Position numbers and translations under genes: made by a program. 64,000 nucleotides of DNA from Streptomyces sp. NBC_00554 (lineage in GTDB: Bacteria > Actinomycetota > Actinomycetes > Streptomycetales > Streptomycetaceae): the NCBI RefSeq assembly GCF_041431135.1, contig NZ_CP107799.1, positions 7,564,001 through 7,628,000 on the forward strand, read 5' to 3'. The stretch's first letter is position 1. Every line of letters starts with the position of its first letter. Shown here piece after piece: positions 4,450 to 35,429 of this stretch. The notes under the pieces are model-generated. The model was not told where the DNA came from, did not search any database, and saw only the letters and a list, made by a program, of their open reading frames with translations.

Positions 4450-5902
4450 TCCCAAGGGCTTTTTGAACCATGGCCGCGAGGTCGCCAGGACCCGTCCGGT
4501 GGACGTGCGTCTCAAGGACTGGAACGAGGTCTACGTTCCGGGCTCGCTGCTCCCCATCATCAGCAAGCAGGCCAGCCGCTGCATGGACTGCGGTATCCCG
4601 TTCTGCCACAACGGCTGTCCGCTGGGGAACCTGATCCCCGAGTGGAACGACTACGCGTACCGCGAGGACTGGTCCGCCGCCTCCGAGCGCCTGCACGCCA
4701 CGAACAACTTCCCGGAGTTCACCGGCCGCCTGTGCCCGGCTCCGTGCGAGTCGGCGTGTGTGCTCGGCATCAACCAGCCCGCCGTGACCATCAAGAACGT
4801 CGAGGTCTCCATCATCGACAAGGCGTGGGACAGCGGCGACGTCGCGCCCCAGGCCCCGGAGCGCCTCTCCGGCAAGACGGTCGCGGTCATCGGCTCGGGT
4901 CCGGCCGGTCTCGCCGCCGCCCAGCAGCTCACCCGGGCCGGCCACACGGTCGCCGTGTACGAGCGCGCCGACCGCGTCGGCGGTCTGCTCCGCTACGGCA
5001 TCCCCGAGTTCAAGATGGAGAAGCGGCACATCAACCGGCGCATCGAGCAGATGCGCGCGGAGGGCACCAAGTTCCGCACCGGCGTGGAGATCGGCCGCGA
5101 CATCGACGCGGCGAAGCTGCGCAAGCGGTACGACGCCGTGGTCATCGCGGCGGGCGCGACGACCGCCCGTGACCTTCCCGCCCCCGGGCGGGAGTTGAAG
5201 GGCATCCACCAGGCGATGGAGTACCTGCCCCTCGCCAACAAGGTCCAGGAGGGCGACTTCGTGGCGCCCCCCATCACGGCCGAGGGCAAGCACGTCGTGG
5301 TCATCGGCGGCGGCGACACGGGCGCGGACTGCGTGGGCACCGCCCACCGCCAGGGCGCGGCCTCGGTCACGCAGCTGGAGATCATGCCGCGGCCCGGCGA
5401 GGAGCGGAACCCGGGTCAGCCCTGGCCGACCTTCCCGATGCTCTACAAGGTCACCTCCGCGCACGAGGAGGGCGGCGAGCGCGTCTACGCCGTCTCCACC
5501 ACCCACTTCGAGGGCGACGAGGACGGCAACGTCCAGTGGCTGCACCTCGTCGAGGTCGAGTTCATCGAAGGCAAGCTGACCCAGAAGCCGGGCACGGAGC
5601 GCAAGATCCCCGCCCAGCTGGTGACGCTCGCGATGGGCTTCACCGGTACGGACGTCGAGAACGGCCTGGTCTCCCAGTTCGGCCTGGAGCTGGACGCGCG
5701 CGGCAACATCGCGCGTGACGCCGACTTCGCGACGAACGTCCCCGGCGTGTACGTCGCCGGTGACGCCGGGCGCGGCCAGTCCCTCATCGTCTGGGCGATC
5801 GCGGAGGGCCGCTCGGCCGCCCGCGGGGTCGACCGCTTCCTGACGGGGGTCAGCGAACTCCCGGCCCCGATCCGCCCGACGGACCGCTCTCTGATGGTCT
5901 GA
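4442..5902 (+). CDS. gltD: Glutamate synthase (NADPH) small subunit
   Basis: This 486-residue beta subunit takes electrons from NADPH through FAD and passes them through Fe-S clusters to GltB. N-terminal cysteine motifs for 4Fe-4S centres are visible ([14 protein letters not shown] and [12 protein letters not shown]). They are followed by an FAD-binding dinucleotide fold ([12 protein letters not shown]) and an NADPH-binding fold ([11 protein letters not shown]). The length is normal for the family. The ATG lies inside the last codons of gltB (8-bp overlap), so the two subunits should be made in a fixed ratio from one transcript. The next gene is convergent, so the operon ends here. Confidence 0.97.
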
Positions 5903-5923
5903 CGCTCCACCCCAACAGACGTC

Positions 5924-5941
5924 CCGTACAAAGGCGTACGG
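5924..5941 (+). terminator. Weak hairpin downstream of gltD
   Basis: A 6-bp inverted repeat, CCGTAC/GTACGG with a 6-nt loop, lies about 20 bp after the gltD stop in the 133-bp gap to the convergent chitosanase gene. It has no U-tract and is short, so it is only a possible terminator. Confidence 0.3.
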
Positions 5942-6035
5942 AACTGAACGCGGCGCTCGCCTTGTCCCCGACCGGACGGTGGTGAGCGCCGTGGTGCGTC
6001 CCGGCCCTGCCCGGCCAAGGCGACCGGGTGGCAGG

Positions 6036-6926
6036 TCAGGGCACCCGGAACGTTTCTCCGTACACCTTCCACTCCAGCGGTGTGCGCAGGTCGAGGTTCC
6101 CGTCGTACAGGAAGGTCCGCTGGGCCGTGTCGATACGGGTCGTGTCGAGGTGGACGTCGTCGCCCTTCATCGTCTTGCGGCGGATGTCGAGGAAGATATC
6201 GAGGTAGGACTTCTCGGAACCGCCCTGGGAGGGTGTGTCGGCCTCGGCCATGGCTCGGTCGCGCAGGCCGTAGAAGCCGTCGGCGCCGGTACCGGGGCCG
6301 TGCAGGACCATCGCGTCGTAGTAGATGAACTGGCCCAGCGTGCCGAGGCCGTCGAGTTTGGCGAGGCGGACCGCGGGATCGAAGTACACGCTGTCGCGTT
6401 CGGAGTCCTGGGCGGTGCGGAAGGCGGCCACCGAGGCTTCCTCGCGCCAGGCCGCCGGGAAACCGTCGAGGCCCTCGTGGGAGTCCGTGCCGTCGACCTT
6501 GCGCAGGGCGGGCAGATAGCGGGCGAGGCCGTTGTCCGGGTGGGACTTCGTGTAGTCCTGGACCAGCGTGAGCAGGTCGTGGGTGCCGGTGCAGAAGCCG
6601 ACGATTCCCGCCGTGTAGCCCTGGCCGTCGCCGATGTCCTCGACGTAGGCGTAGGTGGTGCGCCAGTTCAGTGTGGAGTTCTCGGCGCTGGCCACGATCT
6701 TCTGGGCCAGCTCCTTCTTGTCCGGCGCGGCCAGACCGGGCGGCAGGTCCGCGATCAGCTCGTCGTCGGCCGCCTGCTCGGCCAGGGACTTGGCGTCGGG
6801 CCCGGGCTGCTGCGACGCGGTCGCCTGGGCCTGCGCCGTGCCCGCGTTCTCGGACGTGGCGAGGTAGACCGCCGCCGTGGCGAGGAGCGGGACGGCGGCG
6901 AGCAGGAGGCAACCGGCTCTTCTCAT
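6036..6926 (-). CDS. csnA: Secreted GH46 chitosanase
   Basis: An exported endo-chitosanase that cuts beta-1,4-linked glucosamine polymers. The product is 296 residues from the ATG at 6926; an in-frame GTG at 6935 is the alternative start, and neither has a clear ribosome site. It begins with a basic, hydrophobic signal peptide (MRRAGCLLLAAVPLLA). The mature part closely follows the Streptomyces sp. N174 chitosanase: SAENSTLNW carries the catalytic glutamate (about E82), and EDIGDGQGY carries the catalytic aspartate (about D100), 18 residues apart as in N174. Other shared blocks are ERDSVYFDPAV, LGQFIYYDAMVLHGPG and TPSQGG. A low-complexity linker of about 35 residues separates the signal from the catalytic domain. 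It is monocistronic and convergent with gltD. Confidence 0.93.
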   Translation of the reverse strand: MRRAGCLLLAAVPLLATAAVYLATSENAGTAQAQATASQQPGPDAKSLAEQAADDELIADLPPGLAAPDKKELAQKIVASAENSTLNWRTTYAYVEDIGDGQGYTAGIVGFCTGTHDLLTLVQDYTKSHPDNGLARYLPALRKVDGTDSHEGLDGFPAAWREEASVAAFRTAQDSERDSVYFDPAVRLAKLDGLGTLGQFIYYDAMVLHGPGTGADGFYGLRDRAMAEADTPSQGGSEKSYLDIFLDIRRKTMKGDDVHLDTTRIDTAQRTFLYDGNLDLRTPLEWKVYGETFRVP

Positions 6927-6948
6927 GGCGCCCACAGTAAACGCAGAC

Positions 6949-7869
6949 CTACGCCGTCCCGTTCTTCAGTTCGATAACTTTCCCTGCCGCCGACACCACC
7001 AGCAGCACCAGCAGCCCCACGCACGCCGCCACCTGTATCGGCGTACGGCGCCGGTCACGGGGTGCGTACGCGTACGCGAGGGTGACGGCGGTGCCGGTCA
7101 GGAGGCCGCCGAGGTGGCCCTGCCAGGAGGTGAGCCCCGCGGAGATCAGCAGCCACAGCAGCAGGCCCGCCATGAAGCGGTTGACGCTCTGCATGTCCGC
7201 GCCCAGCCGACGGGCCATGACGTAGTACGCGGCCCCCAGGCCGAAGATCGCACCCGAGGCGCCGAGCGTGGGAGTTTCCGGCGCGATCAGCAGCACGAGG
7301 ACCGAGCCGCCGAGCGCCGACAGCAGATACAGCGCGACATAGCGGATCCGGCCGAGCTGGGACTCCACGACGCGGCCGATGTTCCACAGCGACACCATGT
7401 TCATCACGATGTGCAGAACCCCGAACGTGCCCTCGGTGGGCGGCAGATGGAGGAAGGCGCCGGTCAGCAGCCGGTACCACTCCCCGTCCACCACACCCTC
7501 CGCGTGGAAGTCCGAGGGGTAGACGGCCTGCCAGACGTAGTACAGACCGTCCGGACCCACCAGACTCGCGCCCAGCATCTCGAACCGGTCCACGATCGCC
7601 GGGCGCACCAGTTCACCCACGTAGGCCAGCACGTTGAGCGCGATCAGTACGTACGTCACCACGGGCGCCGTCGAGATCCGGCCGCCGAAGGCCGTGCGGG
7701 CCTCTCTCACGGACCGCACGCCCTCTTTCACGCACTCCGGGCACTGGTGACCGACGGCCGCCTCGCGCATGCAGTCCGGGCATATGTAGCGGTCGCACCG
7801 GGTGCAGCGCACATGCGACTCCACCTTGGGATGGCGGTAGCAGGTGGTGACGGTGGACTCGGGCTCCAC
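6949..7869 (-). CDS. Rhomboid-family intramembrane serine protease with N-terminal zinc box
   Basis: Rhomboids cut transmembrane helices within the bilayer. The GTG at 7869 (306 residues) is chosen because GAGGAG lies just upstream and the protein then begins directly with a B-box-like zinc finger. Eight Cys/His ligands fall within residues 10-46 (CYRHP, CTRC, CPDC, HQCPEC). After a short linker come about six or seven membrane helices. The catalytic serine is in GASGAIFG (about S205), the histidine is in GHLGG (about H252), and the conserved HIVMN lies in an earlier helix. The arrangement of zinc box plus rhomboid is common in actinobacteria. Substrates are unknown. It is transcribed toward csnA, and its stop is 13 bp from the 6935 alternative csnA start. 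Confidence 0.9.
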   Translation of the reverse strand: MEPESTVTTCYRHPKVESHVRCTRCDRYICPDCMREAAVGHQCPECVKEGVRSVREARTAFGGRISTAPVVTYVLIALNVLAYVGELVRPAIVDRFEMLGASLVGPDGLYYVWQAVYPSDFHAEGVVDGEWYRLLTGAFLHLPPTEGTFGVLHIVMNMVSLWNIGRVVESQLGRIRYVALYLLSALGGSVLVLLIAPETPTLGASGAIFGLGAAYYVMARRLGADMQSVNRFMAGLLLWLLISAGLTSWQGHLGGLLTGTAVTLAYAYAPRDRRRTPIQVAACVGLLVLLVVSAAGKVIELKNGTA

Positions 7870-8047
7870 GTCGGCTCCTCGGGAGATGTGTGCGGGTGAC
7901 AGCGGGACGGTGAGCCGGTGGGGCTGCGGCGAACAAAATAGCGAATGCCGGTGTACGCGTGGGACGGCAGGGGCCTGCGATGCCTGCCCGTGCCTGCGGT
8001 GACGTAATCTCGGCACTTCCGCGACCCTCGCGCGATGGGAGCCCAGC

Positions 8048-8767
8048 ATGGCCGGAATCAGCCTCACCAAGGTGGAGGAGACCGCGCCCGCGCTGGTCAG
8101 TCTGTACAAGAGCGCCGGGGTCTCCCTCACCAAGCACGGGCTGAGCGGGCAGCGGGCCGCCGTGTACCTGGTCGTGGACTACTCGGGGTCGATGAAGCCG
8201 TACTACAAGGACGGCAGTGTGCAGGCGCTCGCCGACCGGGTGCTGGGGCTCTCGGCGCACCTCGACGACGACGGGACGGTGCCGGTCGTCTTCTTCTCCA
8301 CCGACATCGACGCCGTCACCGACATCGCCCTCGTCAACCACCAGGGACGCATCGACCAGATCGTGTCCGGGCTCGGGCACATGGGCAAGACCAGCTACCA
8401 CCTCGCCATGGACGCGGTCATCGACCACTACCTCGACAGCGGCTCCAAGGACCCCGCCCTCGTCGTCTTCCAGACCGACGGCGGACCGATCAACAAGCTC
8501 GCCGCCGAACGGTACTTGTGCAAGGCGGCGAAGCTTCCGCTGTTCTGGCAGTTCATAGGGTTCGGGGATCCGGGGAGCAGGCAGTTCGAATTCCTGCGCA
8601 AGCTGGACGAGTTGCCGGTGCCGCAGCAGCGGATCGTCGACAACGCCGGGTTCTTCCATGCTGGTTCGGAGCCTCGGAAGGTGTCCGACAGCGAGCTGTA
8701 CGACCGGATCGTGGGGGAGTTCCCGCAGTGGCTGGCGGCGGCGCGGGCGCGGGGAATCGTGCAGTGA
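8048..8767 (+). CDS. VWA-domain protein (TerF/TerY-like)
   Basis: A 239-residue cytosolic protein made almost entirely of a von Willebrand factor A domain. The metal-ion-dependent adhesion site is intact: DYSGSM near residues 44-49, with later conserved Thr and Asp (KTSYH and FQTDGG). The closest recognisable families are the VWA proteins that occur with tellurium-resistance TerD proteins, although no ter gene is in this window. There is no signal peptide or membrane segment. The stop overlaps the start of the HutD gene by 4 bp (GTGA), so the pair is translationally coupled. Its partner and role are unknown; the domain call is firm. Confidence 0.88.
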   Translation: MAGISLTKVEETAPALVSLYKSAGVSLTKHGLSGQRAAVYLVVDYSGSMKPYYKDGSVQALADRVLGLSAHLDDDGTVPVVFFSTDIDAVTDIALVNHQGRIDQIVSGLGHMGKTSYHLAMDAVIDHYLDSGSKDPALVVFQTDGGPINKLAAERYLCKAAKLPLFWQFIGFGDPGSRQFEFLRKLDELPVPQQRIVDNAGFFHAGSEPRKVSDSELYDRIVGEFPQWLAAARARGIVQ

Positions 8768-9354
8768 CCGTACGTCTCCTGCCCGCCGCCGACCGGCTCG
8801 CCGTGCCCTGGAAGAACGGGGGCGGGGTGACCCGCGAGATCGTCGCCTCGCCCGAGGGCGCGGGCATGGACGACTTCGACTGGCGGGTGAGTCTCGCCGA
8901 GGTCGCCGCGGACGGGCCGTTCTCGGCCTTCCCCGACATCGACCGCACCCTCACCGTCGTCGAGGGCGCGGGCATGGACCTGACCGTGGGCGGGGAGCGG
9001 CGGCTCGTCGACTCCCGTTACGTACCGCAGGACTTCAGGGGCGATGTCCCCACCGACTGCCGGCTGCTCGACGGCCCGGTCGTGAACCTCAACGTGATGT
9101 GGCGCCGGGGCGCCGGCCGCACGGCCCCGACGGTCGCCGTCGTACGCGGCCGCCTGACCCTCCCCGCCGCGCCCGCTCTGGTGGTCGCCCTCGACGGGAG
9201 CGCCGAGGTGGCCGGGCTGCCCCTTCGCCGGTACGACGCCGCGCTGCTCACCGGCGAGGAAGCAGCCGTGCTGCACGCGATGGGCCCTGCCGCCGTGGTC
9301 GGTATCGCCCAACAGGCCCAGTTGGCGGGGATCCTGACGCTCCCGTTGGCTTAG
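8764..9354 (+). CDS. HutD/Ves family protein
   Basis: A 196-residue protein starting at a GTG that overlaps the stop of the VWA gene. Family features are the N-terminal VPWKNGGGVTREI block and FDWRVSLAEVAADGPFSAFP, followed by a cupin-like beta-rich body. HutD proteins are often encoded with histidine-utilisation genes, but none is nearby; the molecular function of the family is not established. It is one residue block shorter at the C-terminus than some members but looks intact. The coupling to the VWA protein is the main clue to its role. Confidence 0.88.
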   Translation: MTVRLLPAADRLAVPWKNGGGVTREIVASPEGAGMDDFDWRVSLAEVAADGPFSAFPDIDRTLTVVEGAGMDLTVGGERRLVDSRYVPQDFRGDVPTDCRLLDGPVVNLNVMWRRGAGRTAPTVAVVRGRLTLPAAPALVVALDGSAEVAGLPLRRYDAALLTGEEAAVLHAMGPAAVVGIAQQAQLAGILTLPLA

Positions 9355-9400
9355 CCGGGACGCCGTGCCACCCTGAGGGAAGCCGAGGGGAAGGCTACAC

Positions 9401-11044
9401 ATGGGCGCGCGATCGGTGGGGGCCGGGCGGAACGGGCGACCGGTGCGGCCGGCCAAGGGCGAGCGGCTCGCGGACTGGGCCGACGGGCGTCTCGGGCTGT
9501 ACCCGATGGCCAAGACCAACCTGCGCAAGGTCTTTCCGGACCACTGGTCGTTCATGCTGGGCGAGGTCTGCCTCTACAGCTTCATCGTCCTGATCCTCAC
9601 CGGCGTCTACCTCACACTGTTCTTCGAGCCGAGCGGGATCGAGGTCGTCTACAACGGCTCCTACGAACCCCTCAACGGCGTCATCATGACGCGGGCGTAC
9701 GAGTCCACGCTCGACATCAGTTTCGACGTGCGCGGCGGGCTGCTGATCCGGCAGATCCACCACTGGGCGGCGCTCGTGTTCGTCGCCGGGATGCTCGTGC
9801 ACATGATGCGGGTGTTCTTCACCGGCGCGTTCCGCAAGCCGCGCGAGGTCAACTGGGTGTTCGGCTGGACGCTGTTGTTCCTCGGGATCATCACCGGCCT
9901 GACCGGCTACTCGCTCCCCGACGACCTGCTCTCGGGCACCGGTGTCCGCTTCGCGCAGGGTGCGATCCTGTCGGTCCCGGTGGTGGGGACGTACCTCTCT
10001 TTCTTCCTCTTCGGAGGGGAGTTCCCGGGCCACGACATCATTCCGCGGTTCTTCCCGATCCATGTGCTCCTGCTGCCCGGGATCATGCTGGGCCTGGTGG
10101 TCGCCCATCTGATCCTGGTCTTTTACCACAAGCACACGCAGTACCCCGGGGCCGGACGGGACCAGAAGTCCGTGGTCGGCATGCCGTTCATGCCGGTCTA
10201 CATGGCCAAGGCGGGCGGCTTCTTCTTCCTCGTGTTCGGGGTGCTGTCGATGATGGGGGCGATCGCGACGGTCAACCCCGTGTGGGCCTTCGGGCCCTAC
10301 CGCCCCGACCTGGTCACCACCGGCGCCCAACCCGACTGGTACCTCGGCTTCTCCGAGGGGCTGATCCGGGTGATGCCGGGATGGGAGATCAACGCCTTCG
10401 GCCACACACTGGCGTTGGGCGTCTTCATCCCCTTCTCCCTCTTCCCGCTGATCATGCTGGCGATCGGCGTGTACCCGTTCATCGAGTCATGGATCACCAG
10501 GGACACCCGCGAACACCACATCCTGGACCGGCCGCGCAACGCGCCCACCCGCACGGGTCTCGGCGTGGCCTGGCTGAGTCTGTACGGGGTGCTGCTGATC
10601 GGCGGCGGCAACGACATCGTGGCCACGCATCTGCACCTGTCGATCAACTCGATCACATGGTTCGTGCGGATCTCCTTCTTCGCCGTGCCGGTGCTCGCCT
10701 TCGTCGTCACGCGGCGGATCTGTATGGGGTTGCAGCGCAGGGACCGCGACAAGGTGCTGCACGGACGGGAGTCGGGCCTCATCAAGCGGCTCCCGCACGG
10801 CGAGTTCGTCGAGGTCCACGAACCGCTCACACAGGCACAGCGGTTCGCCCTCACCCAGCACGACCAGGCGACGCCGTACGAGGTGGGTCCGCTCGTCGAC
10901 GCGAACGGTGTCACCCGCCGCGTCGGTCCCTCGCGCAAGCTGCGGGCGCGTCTGGCCCGGGCCATGTACGGGCCCGACACACAGATCCCGAAGCCGACGG
11001 CGGAGGAGTACCGGGAGCTTACGAGCGAGGATCACCACCACTGA
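9401..11044 (+). CDS. Cytochrome b subunit of bc1 type, solitary paralogue
   Basis: A 547-residue membrane protein of the actinobacterial QcrB family. Cytochrome b passes electrons between two haems and oxidises menaquinol. Haem-ligand histidines are visible in IHHWAALVF, VHMMRVFF, FFPIHVLLLP and VAHLILVFYH, and the quinol-site motif is PDWY, the usual actinobacterial form. About eight or nine helices can be read, followed by a charged C-terminal tail of about 120 residues ending in HHH. Unlike the main qcrCAB operon, no Rieske or cytochrome c gene is adjacent. This suggests a second copy that either works with the main complex or has another role. Its 3' end overlaps the convergent acyl-CoA dehydrogenase gene by 26 bp. 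Confidence 0.93.
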   Translation: MGARSVGAGRNGRPVRPAKGERLADWADGRLGLYPMAKTNLRKVFPDHWSFMLGEVCLYSFIVLILTGVYLTLFFEPSGIEVVYNGSYEPLNGVIMTRAYESTLDISFDVRGGLLIRQIHHWAALVFVAGMLVHMMRVFFTGAFRKPREVNWVFGWTLLFLGIITGLTGYSLPDDLLSGTGVRFAQGAILSVPVVGTYLSFFLFGGEFPGHDIIPRFFPIHVLLLPGIMLGLVVAHLILVFYHKHTQYPGAGRDQKSVVGMPFMPVYMAKAGGFFFLVFGVLSMMGAIATVNPVWAFGPYRPDLVTTGAQPDWYLGFSEGLIRVMPGWEINAFGHTLALGVFIPFSLFPLIMLAIGVYPFIESWITRDTREHHILDRPRNAPTRTGLGVAWLSLYGVLLIGGGNDIVATHLHLSINSITWFVRISFFAVPVLAFVVTRRICMGLQRRDRDKVLHGRESGLIKRLPHGEFVEVHEPLTQAQRFALTQHDQATPYEVGPLVDANGVTRRVGPSRKLRARLARAMYGPDTQIPKPTAEEYRELTSEDHHH

Positions 11045-12086
11045 CAGCGCTGTCTGTGCTTCGTGGACCGTGAACGGTGAGGACTTCGGCCCTGCACTCG
11101 GCCGGGCTGCCCCACGCGGTGCGCAGGGCACGGGCCTTGGTGAGCCAGAGGGACAGGTCGTACTCGGCCGTGTAGCCGATCGCGCCGTGCAGCTGCAGCG
11201 CCGTACGGGCGGTCGCGTACGCCGCCTCGCCCGCCGCGACCTTGGCCGCCGCGACGTCGGCCGGTGCCATGGACAGCGCCGCGCCGAACAGCAGGGGGCG
11301 CGCGAACTCCAGGGCGATCTTCGCGTCCGCGAGCTGGTGCTTGACGGCCTGGAACGAGCCGATGGGGACACCGAACTGGGTGCGCTGCTTGACGTACTCC
11401 ACCGTCCGGTCGAGGAGGGCGAGTCCGACACCGAGCGACTGGGCGGCGGTGGCGAGCCTGGCCCAGGTGAGCGCCTGGGCGGCGGCGTGGGTCACGTGGG
11501 GGCCGGTGGCGAGGAGTTCGCCGGTGGGGTGGGGGAGGGTGAGGTGGCGTGCGGGGTCGAGGGAGGGGCGTGCTGATCCTGTGGGACCGCTGCCGCTGCC
11601 GCTGAGGTGCAGGCGGGCGGGCGGGGTGGTGTCCCGTGTGGGGGCTTCGGGGGAGTCCACCGTCAGGTGGATGTCCGCCGCTTCCGCGTCCAGGACGAAC
11701 GGGCCCCCGCCGGGCAGGGCGACCGTCGCCAGCGCCTCGCCCGAGGCCAGTGCGGGCAGCAGGCGCTTGGCGGAGCCCGACTCGCCCAGCTCGGAGAGGA
11801 GCACGGCCGCGGCCACCGTCTCCACCAGTGGGCCCGGCACCCCGTGGCGGCCCAACTCGATGAAGGCGACGGCCAGTTCGGCCGGGAGGGGGCCCACGCC
11901 CTCGTACGCCTCCGGTACCGCCAGTGCGAAGACGCCCGCGTCGGCGAGGCGGGACCACAGGGCGCGGCCGGGGGTACGGTCGCCGGTGGCCCAGGCACGT
12001 ATGACCGGCGGTGTGTCCGCCGCCGTCAGCAGCGCGTTCAGCGAGTCGGCGAAGGCGCGCTGCTCGGCATCGAGGAGGAAGCGCAT
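11019..12086 (-). CDS. Acyl-CoA dehydrogenase, KstR2-regulon type, subunit 2
   Basis: A 355-residue FAD-dependent acyl-CoA dehydrogenase-like protein that probably forms a heteromer with the product of the gene just upstream. The start codon shares one base with that gene's stop (TGATG). The C-terminal half has the FAD/pyrophosphate segment RTQFGVPIGSFQAVKHQLAD and the LQLHGAIGYT block. The N-terminal half is degenerate and lacks the strong substrate-side motifs, as expected for one half of a split heterotetrameric enzyme. The beginning MRFLLDAEQRAFADSL and the cluster context resemble the FadE33/IpdE2 side of the steroid C/D-ring dehydrogenase. Substrate and exact orthologue are inferred. 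Confidence 0.85.
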   Translation of the reverse strand: MRFLLDAEQRAFADSLNALLTAADTPPVIRAWATGDRTPGRALWSRLADAGVFALAVPEAYEGVGPLPAELAVAFIELGRHGVPGPLVETVAAAVLLSELGESGSAKRLLPALASGEALATVALPGGGPFVLDAEAADIHLTVDSPEAPTRDTTPPARLHLSGSGSGPTGSARPSLDPARHLTLPHPTGELLATGPHVTHAAAQALTWARLATAAQSLGVGLALLDRTVEYVKQRTQFGVPIGSFQAVKHQLADAKIALEFARPLLFGAALSMAPADVAAAKVAAGEAAYATARTALQLHGAIGYTAEYDLSLWLTKARALRTAWGSPAECRAEVLTVHGPRSTDSAVSGGDPRS

Positions 12087-13231
12087 CAGCGGCGGCCCTT
12101 CGGGAGGCCGAGGAGGCGCTCGGCGATGATGTCGCGCTGGATCTCGTTGGTGCCGGCGTAGAGGGGGCCGGCGAGGGAGAAGACATAGCCCTCGGACCAG
12201 TCGGTGTCCGCCAACTCGCCCTCCGGGCCGAGCAGATCGAGCGCCGTCTCGTGCAGCGCGATGTCGTACTCGGACCAGAAGACCTTGTTCAGGCTGGACT
12301 CCGGCCCGATCGGCTCCCCGGCGGCGAAACGGGAGGCGCCGGCGTAGGTGAAGAGCTGGTAGGCGCGGGCGCCGATCACCGCGTCGGCCACCCGGTCGCG
12401 CAGGGCCGTGTCCGCGGGGTCGGCGTGGGTGCGCCACAGGTCGGCCAGCCGGTCGGCGGCGGCCAGGAAACGGCCCGGGGAGCGGAGCGTCAGACCGCGT
12501 TCGTTGCCCGCTGTCGACATGGCGACCCGCCAGCCCTGGCCCACCTCTCCGATCACGTCCTCGTCGGGGACGAAGACGGAGTCGAGGAAGAGTTCGGCGA
12601 AGGCGGGTCTGCCGTCCAGGCGGCCGATCGGGCGGACCGTCACACCCGGTGCACGCAGGTCGAACATCAGGTAGGTGAGGCCCTGGTGGGGCTTCGGGGT
12701 GTCCGGCTCGCTGCGGAACAGGCCGAACGCACGGTCCGCGAACGCGGCCCGCGACGACCACGTCTTCTGCCCGCTCAGCAGCCAGCCCCCGTCCGTGCGC
12801 ACCGCGCGGGAGGTGAGCGAGGCCAGGTCGGAACCGGCCTCGGGCTCGGACCATGCCTGCGCCCAGATGGTCTCGCCCGTCGCCATCGACGGCAGCACGC
12901 GCGCGCGTTGCTCCTGAGTCCCGTGGTCGAAGAGGGTGGGGGCCAGCAGGTTGATGCCGTTCTGGCTGACCCGGCCCGGCGCGCCCGCCGCGTAGTACTC
13001 CTCCTCGAAGACCAGCCACCGGACGATGTCCACGCCCCGGCCGCCGTACGCCGTCGGCCACGACACCACCGACCAGCGGTCCGCGGCGAGTTCGGACTCC
13101 CACGCGCGGTGGGCGGCGAAGCCCTCCGCGGTCTCCAGGGAGGGGAGGGGGGCGAGCGGCACATGGGCCGCGAGCCAGGCCCGGGCCTCGGCGCGGAACG
13201 CCTCGTCGGCGGGGGAGTGGTCGAGATCCAT
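12086..13231 (-). CDS. Acyl-CoA dehydrogenase, KstR2-regulon type, subunit 1
   Basis: A 381-residue acyl-CoA dehydrogenase starting at ATG 13231, with GAAGGG about 8 bp upstream; the longer open frame to 13279 would run into the operator. It contains the FAD contact segments QAWSEPEAGSDLASL and WLLSGQKTWSS, and the C-terminal YAGTNEIQRDIIAERLLGL. Sequence style and context match the mycobacterial FadE30-FadE33 group, closest by eye to FadE31/32. A role dehydrogenating a bicyclic steroid C/D-ring CoA thioester is inferred. It is the first gene of a two-gene unit transcribed away from the KstR2-like operator at 13275-13288. Confidence 0.87.
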   Translation of the reverse strand: MDLDHSPADEAFRAEARAWLAAHVPLAPLPSLETAEGFAAHRAWESELAADRWSVVSWPTAYGGRGVDIVRWLVFEEEYYAAGAPGRVSQNGINLLAPTLFDHGTQEQRARVLPSMATGETIWAQAWSEPEAGSDLASLTSRAVRTDGGWLLSGQKTWSSRAAFADRAFGLFRSEPDTPKPHQGLTYLMFDLRAPGVTVRPIGRLDGRPAFAELFLDSVFVPDEDVIGEVGQGWRVAMSTAGNERGLTLRSPGRFLAAADRLADLWRTHADPADTALRDRVADAVIGARAYQLFTYAGASRFAAGEPIGPESSLNKVFWSEYDIALHETALDLLGPEGELADTDWSEGYVFSLAGPLYAGTNEIQRDIIAERLLGLPKGRR

Positions 13232-31872: not shown

Positions 31873-32069
31873 GGAGAGGGCCCCCACGTCAACGCGCGGC
31901 GTCAACCCGGCCCGCGCGCACGACTCCTAGCACCTCGGCCGCTCCAACACGTTTCCTCCGTACGGCAGTACCCCCTTTTGGGTCGGATCGTTGTCCTTCG
32001 CGGGCGCGCCGACCCGATCTGCGTACAGGCTTGGACTCCACCCTGCCGCGCGCCCACCGGAGGACACCC

Positions 32070-33437
32070 ATGAGCAGGCCGCACCTCGCCTCAGGTCCCG
32101 AAGGCCCCGGCGCGCTGCGGCCGTTGCTCGACACCGTGCTCGACGCACTGCGCGAGGGCGGCGAGGCGAGGGGAGGGCCGCTGCCCGCCGGAGGGCCGGA
32201 GGCGGTGGCCCGACGGGTGCGGGACGCGGTCGGCGACGTACTGCCCCGGCAAGGCAGCGACGACGCCCTGCACACCCTCGTACGGGCCCTCGCCGAGGGC
32301 GCCGCGGACCCCGCCCACCCGCTGTGCGCCGCCCACCTGCACTGCCCGCCCCTCGCCGTCGCCACCGCCGCGGACCTCGCCGTCTCCGTCCTCAACCCCT
32401 CCCTGGACTCCTGGGACCAGGCCCCCGCCGCCTCCGAACTGGAGGCACTCGTGACACGGACGCTGGCGCGCGAAGCCGGCGCGGCGGACGCGCTCGTCAC
32501 CACCGGCGGCACCGAGTCCAACCAACTCGCCCTCCTCCTCGCCCGGGAAGCACACGGAAGCGCACACGGCGGCGTGCGGCTCGTGCACGGCGCCAACGCC
32601 CACCACTCCCTGCCCCGCGCCGCCTGGCTCCTCGGCCTGCCCGACCCCGTCGTCGTCCCCGCCCCCGCCGGCACGATGGACCCCGCCGCCCTCTGCGAAG
32701 CCCTCACCGAGCTGCCGGGCCCCCTGCTCGTCGCCGCCACCGCCGGCACCACCGACGCCGGCCTCATCGACCCGCTGCCCGAGATCGCCGACCTGTGCGA
32801 GGCCCACGGCGCCCGCCTCCACATCGACGCCGCCTACGGCGGAGGCCTCCTCTTCAGCGACCGGCACCGCGGCCTGCTCGACGGACTCGACCGCGCCCAC
32901 ACCGTCACCCTCGACCTGCACAAACTCGGCTGGCAGCCCGTCGCCGCGGGCCTCCTCACCGTCCGCGACGAACGCGACCTCGCCGCACTGGAACACCGCG
33001 CCGACTACCTCAACGCCGACGACGACACCGAAGCGGGCCTCCCCGACCTCCTCGGCCGCTCCCTGCGCACCACCCGGCGCCCCGACATCCTCAAGATCGC
33101 CGTCACCCTCAAAACCCTCGGACGAGAAGGAATCGGCGCCCTCGTCGACCAGGTCTGCGCGCGCGCTCACGAGTTCGCCGACCTCATAGCCGCCCACCCC
33201 GGCTTCGAGCTCTACGACCGGCCGACCATCAGCACTGTCCTGTTCCGGCCCACCGAAGCCACCGACGCCGCCGTCGCCGCCGTACGCCGCACCCTCCTGC
33301 ACGAAGGCCGCGCGGTCCTCGGACGCGCCACCCTCGACGGCCGCCGCTGGCTCAAAGCCACCCTCCTCAACCCCCACACCCGGCCAGGCGACCTGGCCAC
33401 GCTCTTGAAACTGGTGGAAGGACACACCCCCCGATGA
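32070..33437 (+). CDS. PLP-dependent amino acid decarboxylase, DesA-like
   Basis: A 455-residue group II PLP decarboxylase starting at ATG 32070 after GGAGG. The PLP lysine is K285 in LDLHKLGWQPVAAG. The aspartate that contacts the ring is D253 (HIDAAYGG), and the TTGGTESNQLAL phosphate loop is near residue 146. The DLHKLGWQPVAAG block is the form seen in DesA, the lysine decarboxylase of desferrioxamine synthesis. The downstream gene overlaps by 4 bp and is a DesB-like hydroxylase, so lysine (giving cadaverine) or a shorter diamine precursor is the likely substrate. No iron box was seen in the 197-bp upstream gap. Confidence 0.87.
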   Translation: MSRPHLASGPEGPGALRPLLDTVLDALREGGEARGGPLPAGGPEAVARRVRDAVGDVLPRQGSDDALHTLVRALAEGAADPAHPLCAAHLHCPPLAVATAADLAVSVLNPSLDSWDQAPAASELEALVTRTLAREAGAADALVTTGGTESNQLALLLAREAHGSAHGGVRLVHGANAHHSLPRAAWLLGLPDPVVVPAPAGTMDPAALCEALTELPGPLLVAATAGTTDAGLIDPLPEIADLCEAHGARLHIDAAYGGGLLFSDRHRGLLDGLDRAHTVTLDLHKLGWQPVAAGLLTVRDERDLAALEHRADYLNADDDTEAGLPDLLGRSLRTTRRPDILKIAVTLKTLGREGIGALVDQVCARAHEFADLIAAHPGFELYDRPTISTVLFRPTEATDAAVAAVRRTLLHEGRAVLGRATLDGRRWLKATLLNPHTRPGDLATLLKLVEGHTPR

Positions 33438-34852
33438 GCCCGACGCCCAACCCCCCACACCCCGCCGCCGTTGCACCCCGCGACCTGGTGGGCATCGGCA
33501 TCGGCCCCTTCAACCTCTCCCTCGCCGCCCTCGCCCAGCCCCTCGCCGAACTCGACACCGTCTTCTACGAACAGCGCCCCGGCTTCGACTGGCACCCCGG
33601 CCTCCTCATCGACGGCGCCACCCTCCAAGTCCCCTTCCTTGCCGACCTGGTGACCCTCGCCGACCCCGCCAGCCCCTGGTCGTTCCTCAACTACCTCAAG
33701 GACCGCGACCGGCTCTTCCCGTTCTACTTCGCCGAGCGCTTCCACATCCAGCGCGCCGAGTACGACGCCTACTGCCGCTGGGTCGCCGACAGCCTCCCCG
33801 GACTCCACTTCGGCCACCAGGTCGACGCCGTCCGCTGGAACCCCGAACGCGCCCTGTTCGAAGTCGACTTCAGCCAACTCGACGCCGACGGGGAAGCCGA
33901 ATCCCTCGGCCGCTCCTACACCCGCAACATCGTCCTCGGCGTCGGCACCGCCCCCAACATCCCCGAACCGCTCAAGCCCCTCGTGGCGGCCCCCGGCGTG
34001 CCCGTCATCCACGCCGCCGACTACCTCAAACACCGCGAGCAGTTCCTCACCGCCGAACACATCACCGTCATCGGCGCCGGACAGTCAGGCGCCGAAGTCT
34101 TCCTCGACCTCCTGCGCAACCGACCCGCAGGCCGCGAGAAGATCCACTGGCTCGCCCGCACCGAAGCCTTCGCCCCCATGGAGTACTCCAAGCTCGGCCT
34201 GGAGCACTTCACCCCCGACTACACCCGCTACTTCCACCACCTCACAGAACCCGTCCGCGACCGGCTCGTCGCCGCCCAATGGCAACTCCACAAAGGCATC
34301 GACGCCGACACCATCGCCGCCATCCACGACGAGCTCTACCGCCGCACCCTGCACGGCGGCTGGCCCGACGCCGTCCTCACCCCCGCCGTCACCGTCCGCA
34401 CCGCAGGACGCGTCGCCACCACCAAAGTCGAACTCCACCTCGAACACACCCAACAAGGCGCCCGCTCCCGCCTCACCACCGACGCCGTCGTCCTCGCCAC
34501 CGGCTACCGTGAACGCCCCCTCGGCCGCATCCTCGCCGGACTCGACCCCTACCTGCGCCGCGACAGCTCCGAACGCCCCCGCATCGACGACCAGTTCCGC
34601 CTGGTCCTCGACCCGTCCGTCACCGGCCACGTCTACGTCCAGAACGCCGAACTCCACACCCACGGCGTCGGCGCCCCCGACCTCGGCCTCGCCGCCTGGC
34701 GCAGCGCCACCATCCTCAACTCCCTCACCGGCAAAGACCCCTACCCGCTCCCACGCCGAACGGCCTTCACCAGCTTCGGACTCGATCAACAACCACAGAT
34801 CCCGTCCGCCCGCCAGGAACGCACCCTGATCCCCTTGGTGGAGGGCAGGTAA
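33434..34852 (+). CDS. Lysine/ornithine/diamine N-monooxygenase, DesB-like
   Basis: A 472-residue flavin N-hydroxylase that turns a terminal amine into a hydroxylamine for hydroxamate siderophores. The FAD motif GIGIGPFNLSLAAL is near residue 20, the substrate-side FDWHPGLLIDGATLQVPF follows, the NADPH motif VIGAGQSGAEVFLDLL is near 215, and the family's LATGYRERPLG is near 355. Its ATG overlaps the decarboxylase stop (ATGA). No acyltransferase (DesC) or siderophore synthetase (DesD) follows; the next 636 bp contain only repeats. The pair may feed another pathway or a siderophore locus elsewhere. Confidence 0.9.
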   Translation: MSPTPNPPHPAAVAPRDLVGIGIGPFNLSLAALAQPLAELDTVFYEQRPGFDWHPGLLIDGATLQVPFLADLVTLADPASPWSFLNYLKDRDRLFPFYFAERFHIQRAEYDAYCRWVADSLPGLHFGHQVDAVRWNPERALFEVDFSQLDADGEAESLGRSYTRNIVLGVGTAPNIPEPLKPLVAAPGVPVIHAADYLKHREQFLTAEHITVIGAGQSGAEVFLDLLRNRPAGREKIHWLARTEAFAPMEYSKLGLEHFTPDYTRYFHHLTEPVRDRLVAAQWQLHKGIDADTIAAIHDELYRRTLHGGWPDAVLTPAVTVRTAGRVATTKVELHLEHTQQGARSRLTTDAVVLATGYRERPLGRILAGLDPYLRRDSSERPRIDDQFRLVLDPSVTGHVYVQNAELHTHGVGAPDLGLAAWRSATILNSLTGKDPYPLPRRTAFTSFGLDQQPQIPSARQERTLIPLVEGR

Positions 34853-35316
34853 GAAGCGAAGCCTTCCAAGCACGGCTCAGCACCCGCGACGGCAAGAAGC
34901 CGCTGGAGATCACCCGGGCCATCGGCGTTTCCTGCGGGCCGCCACCCGGGCTGCCGTGGGGAATGGTTTTTCGCCCCCTCCGCCCCTACCCAACCCGTAC
35001 CTGGGGGCTCCGCCCCCAGACCCCCGCTCGCCCGAAGGCCTCGTCCTCAAACGCCGGACGGGCTGGATGGTGACTCCCTGGGCTGAAAAGCGCAGCCCCC
35101 ACGGGTGGGAGGGGGATCGGGACGGCACAGGCTCGTCCTCAAACGCCGGACGGGCTGGATGGTGACTCCCTGGGCTGAATGCGTAGCCCCCGCGGGTGGG
35201 TGGGGGATCGGGACGGCACCGCCCCGCCCACCGGACGCCGTAGGCGTTCGAGGAGCGGGGCCCGGTCCGGAGGGAGCGCCCCCCACCACACCCCCCGCTG
35301 CCGCCCACCGGCGGGA
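34853..35316. repeat. Repeat-filled non-coding region with half copy and tandem 88-bp units
   Basis: Most of this gap carries no convincing gene. From 34965 about 95 bp repeat the left half of the 277-bp element at 21214 (TTTTTCGCCCCCTCCGCCCC ... CCTCAAACGCCGGACGGGCT). Two tandem units of 89 and 88 bp follow (35040-35128 and 35132-35219), each starting CTCGTCCTCAAACGCCGG and ending GGGATCGGGACGGCAC. A reversed arm (GGCGTTCGAGGAGCGGGG) closes at about 35264. The first 110 bp (34853-34964) show nothing recognisable. Confidence 0.75.
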
Positions 35317-35429
35317 GGGGGCGTGCCGGTACGTCCAAAGCCCGTCGCGTACGCCCGCGTCACCGGACGCTTCACTGCCCGGCCAACGTCTGATCCGGCG
35401 GCGACGGGCGGACGTACCGGCACGCCCCC
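35317..35429. mobile_element. 113-bp palindromic MITE-like element
   Basis: A perfect 20-bp inverted repeat (35317-35336 and 35410-35429, GGGGGCGTGCCGGTACGTCC) continues inward as a 9-bp arm pair (GCCCGTCGC, 35340-35348; GCGACGGGC, 35401-35409) after a 3-nt bulge. About 52 bp lie in the loop. There is no coding potential. It could be a transposon-derived hairpin or a large terminator for the convergent nucleotidase and hydroxylase genes. Confidence 0.6.

Follow-up and report, generated by a model that had tools for sequence, protein, structure and literature searches.

A near-universal decarboxylase/N-hydroxylase gene pair of Streptomyces as the probable missing half of a split rhizobactin/schizokinen-type pathway

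In Streptomyces sp. NBC_00554, an adjacent decarboxylase/N-hydroxylase gene pair, desA2 and desB2, probably encodes the RhbB- and RhbE-type steps of an NRPS-independent pathway of the rhizobactin/schizokinen type whose genes, in Streptomyces, occupy two unlinked loci. The most likely role of the pair is to provide N-hydroxy-1,3-diaminopropane for the other locus, which is of rhbACD(F) type. The pair lies in a stretch of 64 kb that was analysed as a whole (the window) within a genome of 10.08 Mb. The observations behind this proposal are the gene content, the one-to-one correspondence of six enzyme types to those of the rhb operon, the placement of both proteins by clade and by residue, the shared loss of the pair and rhbC, and the absence of iron boxes.

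The first gene, desA2 (rhbB type; 32070..33437, + strand), encodes a PLP-dependent group II decarboxylase of 455 aa (PF00282, E 1.8e-38), and desB2 (rhbE type; 33434..34852, + strand) encodes a flavin-dependent N-hydroxylase of 472 aa (PF13434, E 3.4e-115). The two ORFs share a 4-bp ATGA stop/start overlap (33434..33437, + strand), likely a sign of translational coupling, and ATGA is found near the junction at 67 of 70 loci. An earlier sequence-only reading had given these enzyme types, positions and overlap correctly. A GGAGGA ribosome-binding site precedes desA2, and the PLP motifs TGGTESNQ, HIDAAYGGG and DLHKL can be read in its product. Both ORFs are real rather than chance, since desB2 recurs in 80 Streptomyces loci and substitutions in the ORFs fall mostly at third codon positions. 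DesA2 scored 299 bits against the NCBIfam RhbB model, under the cut-off of 900, and DesB2 scored 406 bits against the histamine N-monooxygenase model, under the cut-off of 700. The solved structures closest to DesB2 are SsDesB, FbsI and DfoA, all of which are diamine hydroxylases. The neighbouring genes (NmrA-like, PepN, nucleotidase, SIMPL and pyruvate kinase) are housekeeping or unrelated, and the pair has no adjoining gene for an acyltransferase, NIS synthetase or transporter, as had been noted before.

Repeats were observed 3' of desB2. In the gap there, a 48-bp direct repeat occurs in two perfect copies separated by 92 bp, with a 52-bp repeat of 85% identity after them (35040-35229). Between desB2 and the gene for the nucleotidase, 35317-35336 and 35410-35429 form a perfect inverted repeat of 20 bp with 73 bp between its arms.

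The window pair is distinct from that of desferrioxamine biosynthesis. The sequence-only reading had allowed that these genes might be the normal desAB, split from desCD, if the genome held no other desAB; a canonical desABCD is present at C1:6.397-6.402 Mb, with near-consensus iron boxes (1 and 3 mismatches). Both desC and desD sit there with the canonical desAB, and neither is found near the window pair. In total, the genome encodes three full-length N-hydroxylases of the DesB2 family and four PF00282 decarboxylases. Like desferrioxamine desAB (SCO2782-SCO2783 type; SsDesB; DfoJ/DfoA), the window pair combines the same two enzyme families in adjacent genes, decarboxylase then diamine hydroxylase, but it differs in clade, in diagnostic residues and in lacking both desCD and an iron box. 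The phylogeny against true desAB that had been proposed earlier bears this out: in maximum-likelihood trees, DesB groups with SsDesB, DfoA and FbsI, and DesA with DfoJ, with full support, whereas DesB2 and DesA2 fall in other, well supported clades.

A second cadaverine/putrescine pair could nonetheless feed DesC/DesD and add to desferrioxamine or to mixed ferrioxamines. The enzyme families are the same, with 41% and 42% identity to the strain's own DesA and DesB, respectively, SsDesB accepts several diamines (PMC8009421), and about 150 genomes hold both the pair and DesD. This is distinctly improbable given the separate clades, the missing iron box and the RhbE-like rather than DesB-like residues of DesB2, including Phe and Gly where SsDesB has Thr240 and Thr388. 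DesD was detected in 155 of 199 Streptomyces genomes and showed no association with the pair (p 1.0). Some 40 genomes have the pair and lack DesD, so serving DesD cannot be its only reason to exist.

Residue comparisons gave further clues to the substrate. SsDesB excludes an amino-acid carboxylate through L237, D391 and the lack of a Lys equivalent to SidA K107 (PMC8009421). DesB2 keeps L237 and D391 (SsDesB numbering) and has no carboxylate-binding Lys; it should therefore act on a diamine, as expected of a diamine-type hydroxylase. We compared 21 diagnostic columns that each have one residue common to the cadaverine enzymes and a different one common to the two rhb-type enzymes. DesB2 carries the letter of the 1,3-diaminopropane enzymes (RhbE/Halorussus) in 17 of 21 and the cadaverine letter in 2 of 21, although some of these states may be ancestral. 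Two telling positions close to the substrate site are 240 (Phe) and 388 (Gly); the Phe may be ancestral because lysine and ornithine enzymes have it too. On these residues, we propose that DesB2 would be a 1,3-diaminopropane N-hydroxylase. For DesA2, the diagnostic columns favored the diaminobutyrate type by only 7 to 3 of 13, and its tree position gives no link to known diaminobutyrate decarboxylases. The RhbB family model was rejected as a substrate discriminator, as it scores lysine-type DesA (431 bits) higher than DesA2. The proposal that DesA2 is an L-2,4-diaminobutyrate decarboxylase rests mainly on the aminotransferase gene found beside its relatives and in a distant locus of the same genome. 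Overall, the diamine is likely 1,3-diaminopropane from diaminobutyrate rather than cadaverine.

That distant locus, L100 (C1:2.587-2.595 Mb), lies 5 Mb from the window pair and carries, on one strand, genes for a diaminobutyrate aminotransferase (rhbA type; C1:~2.593-2.595 Mb; TIGR00709, 490 bits, cut-off 402), a first NIS synthetase (rhbC type; IucA/IucC, PF04183), a GNAT acetyltransferase (rhbD type; PF13523) and a second NIS synthetase (rhbF type). It encodes neither a decarboxylase nor an N-hydroxylase. In Sinorhizobium meliloti (L238) and Halorussus (L239), a single A-B-C-D-E-F operon holds all six types. Together, the window pair and the four L100 genes match these operons one to one at 36-55% identity; types A, C, D and F are at L100, in the same relative order as in the rhb operon, and B and E are in the window. 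Because L100 lacks exactly the two types that the window pair supplies, the pair can be seen as its missing half. All six enzyme types of the rhizobactin 1021 operon rhbABCDEF and of the haloarchaeal schizokinen-type operon (dat, bdb, iucABDC) thus have a counterpart here, but in this genome they are spread over two unlinked loci, neither of them iron-boxed. In Haloferax volcanii, genes of the same six types were reported to be essential for siderophore production, with a proposed schizokinen route via 1,3-diaminopropane (PMC7407949).

A similar locus is known from Streptomyces coelicolor. From the gene order nrdJ, nrdR, lexA and helicase, we take L100 to correspond to SCO5799-5801 of that species, an orphan NIS locus of the same kind by gene order and content. 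In the literature found, SCO5799-SCO5801 is named only as a putative siderophore locus, and no decarboxylase/hydroxylase partner is named for it in the literature searched. No earlier link between desA2B2-type and SCO5799-5801-type loci was found in the open-access literature. Separately, a divergent pair of NIS synthetase genes with neither an N-hydroxylase gene nor an iron box was observed elsewhere in the genome (~8150-11340 of G000:C1:2012000-2030000), and such divergent pairs occur in several of 11 Streptomyces genomes checked.

The closest relatives of the pair in other actinobacterial families (46-61% identity) adjoin one or two NIS synthetase genes, and in one genome (G438) decarboxylase, hydroxylase and NIS genes follow in direct succession. 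In one actinobacterial family, a diaminobutyrate aminotransferase gene is regularly part of these NIS clusters, several of which have iron boxes. Two variations were also observed. In other actinobacteria and small-genome Streptomyces (L139-L152), NIS clusters beside relatives of the pair encode a glutamine-synthetase-like protein and a PF02784 decarboxylase (Orn/DAP/Arg type), and several of these clusters are iron-boxed. Two Streptomyces genomes carry a second copy of the decarboxylase/hydroxylase pair at 62-63% identity (L134 7770-10716; L135 5269-8341), with an iron box (4 mismatches) upstream and no NIS gene within the stretch examined.

Within Streptomyces, desB2 was recovered at 79-100% identity in 80 loci, with desA2 adjacent in 70, and most loci share one neighborhood, with pepN on one side and nucleotidase/pyk on the other. 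The pair is present in 191 of 199 genomes, comprising 186 clear DesB2 matches and five frameshifted, broken or contig-end copies (G010, G012, G081, G099 and G196). The first NIS gene of L100, rhbC, is nearly as widespread (189 of 199), whereas the second, rhbF, is the variable gene of the locus; it is absent from about half of the genus, in contrast to the rhb operon, and shows no association with the pair (p 0.39). Ten genomes lack rhbC (G014, G027, G028, G032, G050, G092, G130, G132, G139 and G142) and eight lack DesB2 (G008, G027, G050, G079, G092, G130, G132 and G142). Both are absent from six genomes compared to 0.4 expected by chance (Fisher p = 7e-8, a value that ignores the kinship of the genomes, reflects few events and comes from a test for which rhbC was picked after the rhbF result was seen). 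A DesD tree places G027/G132 and G130/G142 in two clades parted by genomes that keep both the pair and rhbC; with the DesD-less G092 counted as well, the co-loss likely reflects at least three events. Four of the exceptions to co-loss (G028, G032, G139 and G008) are fragmented or incomplete assemblies. G079, which has an intact rhbC and no pair, is 78% complete, and G050, counted among the shared losses, is 82% complete. G014, in which the pair is present and both rhbC and DesD are absent, looks like a true exception.

These patterns also bear on whether the pair might act alone, for example by hydroxylating a polyamine in a regulatory, developmental or detoxifying role, with the co-loss of rhbC being a coincidence or part of lineage-wide loss. 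An independent function would suit a near-universal, iron-box-free pair at a chromosomal-core locus as well as the gene content of G014, and the independent loss events are few. We nevertheless regard it as unlikely: the pair fills exactly the gene types absent at L100, it was lost together with rhbC in what appear to be at least three events, and its relatives are located within NIS clusters.

The sequence-only reading had also raised an N-N bonded product, for which there is a basis in one relative from the clade of DesB2. In Streptomyces G581 (L136; C2:90000-109000, 4885-12676), genes were observed for a diaminobutyrate aminotransferase, a decarboxylase, a DesB2-like hydroxylase (64% identity), a stand-alone cupin (116 aa) and a MetRS-like protein (551 aa), with the first two on the opposite strand to the other three. 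By analogy, this is likely a Dpn-like, diaminopropane-based hydrazine cluster. The MetRS/cupin hydrazine synthetase pathways (Spb38/Spb40, Dpn type) use an N-hydroxylase of the DesB2 family, and a review describes split enzymes (Dpn5-Dpn6) with N3-OH-DAPN as substrate (PMC11705231), which we read as N-hydroxy-diaminopropane. The window pair could in principle make N-hydroxy-1,3-diaminopropane for a hydrazine formed in this way. However, a hydrazine synthetase is missing from both the window locus and the rest of the genome, where the best match is 26%, as expected for a housekeeping MetRS, compared to 100% for the positive control G581. Apart from G581, close matches turned up in 3 of 20 genomes (34-38%), a sporadic pattern unlike that of the near-universal pair, and no such genes adjoin the pair in the 80 loci examined. 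An N-N bonded product is therefore unlikely in this genome, and we give very little credence to hydrazine synthesis as the function of the pair.

In this genome, iron boxes were found at des and at an NRPS locus, but not at the window pair or L100. As the sequence-only reading had stated, the window has no iron box, with none at ≤6 mismatches across its 64 kb. Iron boxes were likewise absent near the pair in all 70 loci and, within 5 mismatches, from seven other rhb loci. No Zur box was found in the window, and one rhb locus gave one weak match (4 mismatches). An upstream element, GTACCCCCTTTYGGG (31968..31982, + strand), was recognized by its conservation about 100 bp 5' of desA2; it occurs at 49 of 69 Streptomyces loci with ≤2 mismatches and has a single match within the window. 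It was not found at rhbA, no known regulator was recognized for it, and no shared motif was found upstream of desA2 and rhbA. In S. coelicolor, values for SCO5799 and SCO5801 rise in later mycelium, while those for SCO2782 (desA) fall (PMC3610822).

For the split pathway, we infer the substrates of all steps, coupling in trans, the product and any role in iron uptake. The aminotransferase of L100 would form L-2,4-diaminobutyrate, for which an ectoine-type aminotransferase is another possible source. DesA2 would decarboxylate this to 1,3-diaminopropane, and DesB2 would hydroxylate one of its amines. The GNAT protein of the distant locus would then acylate the hydroxylamine, and the first NIS synthetase, together with the second where present, would couple the product to citrate to give a schizokinen-like citrate hydroxamate. 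Several observations weigh against this scheme. A distance of 5 Mb separates the two loci, a search for a regulatory motif common to both found none, and some rhbC loci lack an adjacent aminotransferase gene. The absence of rhbF from about half of the pair-bearing genomes leaves the product there ambiguous. Further points are the gene content of G014 and of the 78%-complete G079, the 7-to-3 residue signature and tree position of DesA2, and the lack of an iron box, which means that the pathway may not serve iron uptake.

Collectively, the earlier idea of an N-hydroxy-diamine precursor for a product encoded elsewhere holds in that this is a second, non-desferrioxamine pair, most likely for a second hydroxamate; it changes in that the genes, far from being stray, form a locus found across the genus, with the remaining partners likely in the same genome. 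The chemistry is already known; what would be new is its split arrangement, a candidate answer to an orphan cluster that has long been listed. More tentatively, and with considerable doubt, nearly every Streptomyces might use a split pathway free of iron boxes to turn 1,3-diaminopropane into a citrate hydroxamate not yet described. This compound would serve in metal handling or signalling, be constitutive or under some other control, and not be a classical iron-starvation siderophore. In the model S. coelicolor, the SCO5799-5801-type NIS locus has counted among the orphan siderophore clusters; should the pair supply the two steps that it lacks, the way to its product could be predicted (diaminobutyrate, 1,3-diaminopropane, N-hydroxy-diaminopropane, citrate). 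If true, this would clearly exemplify a specialised pathway, near-universal and spread over two unlinked loci, of the sort that cluster-based genome mining misses.
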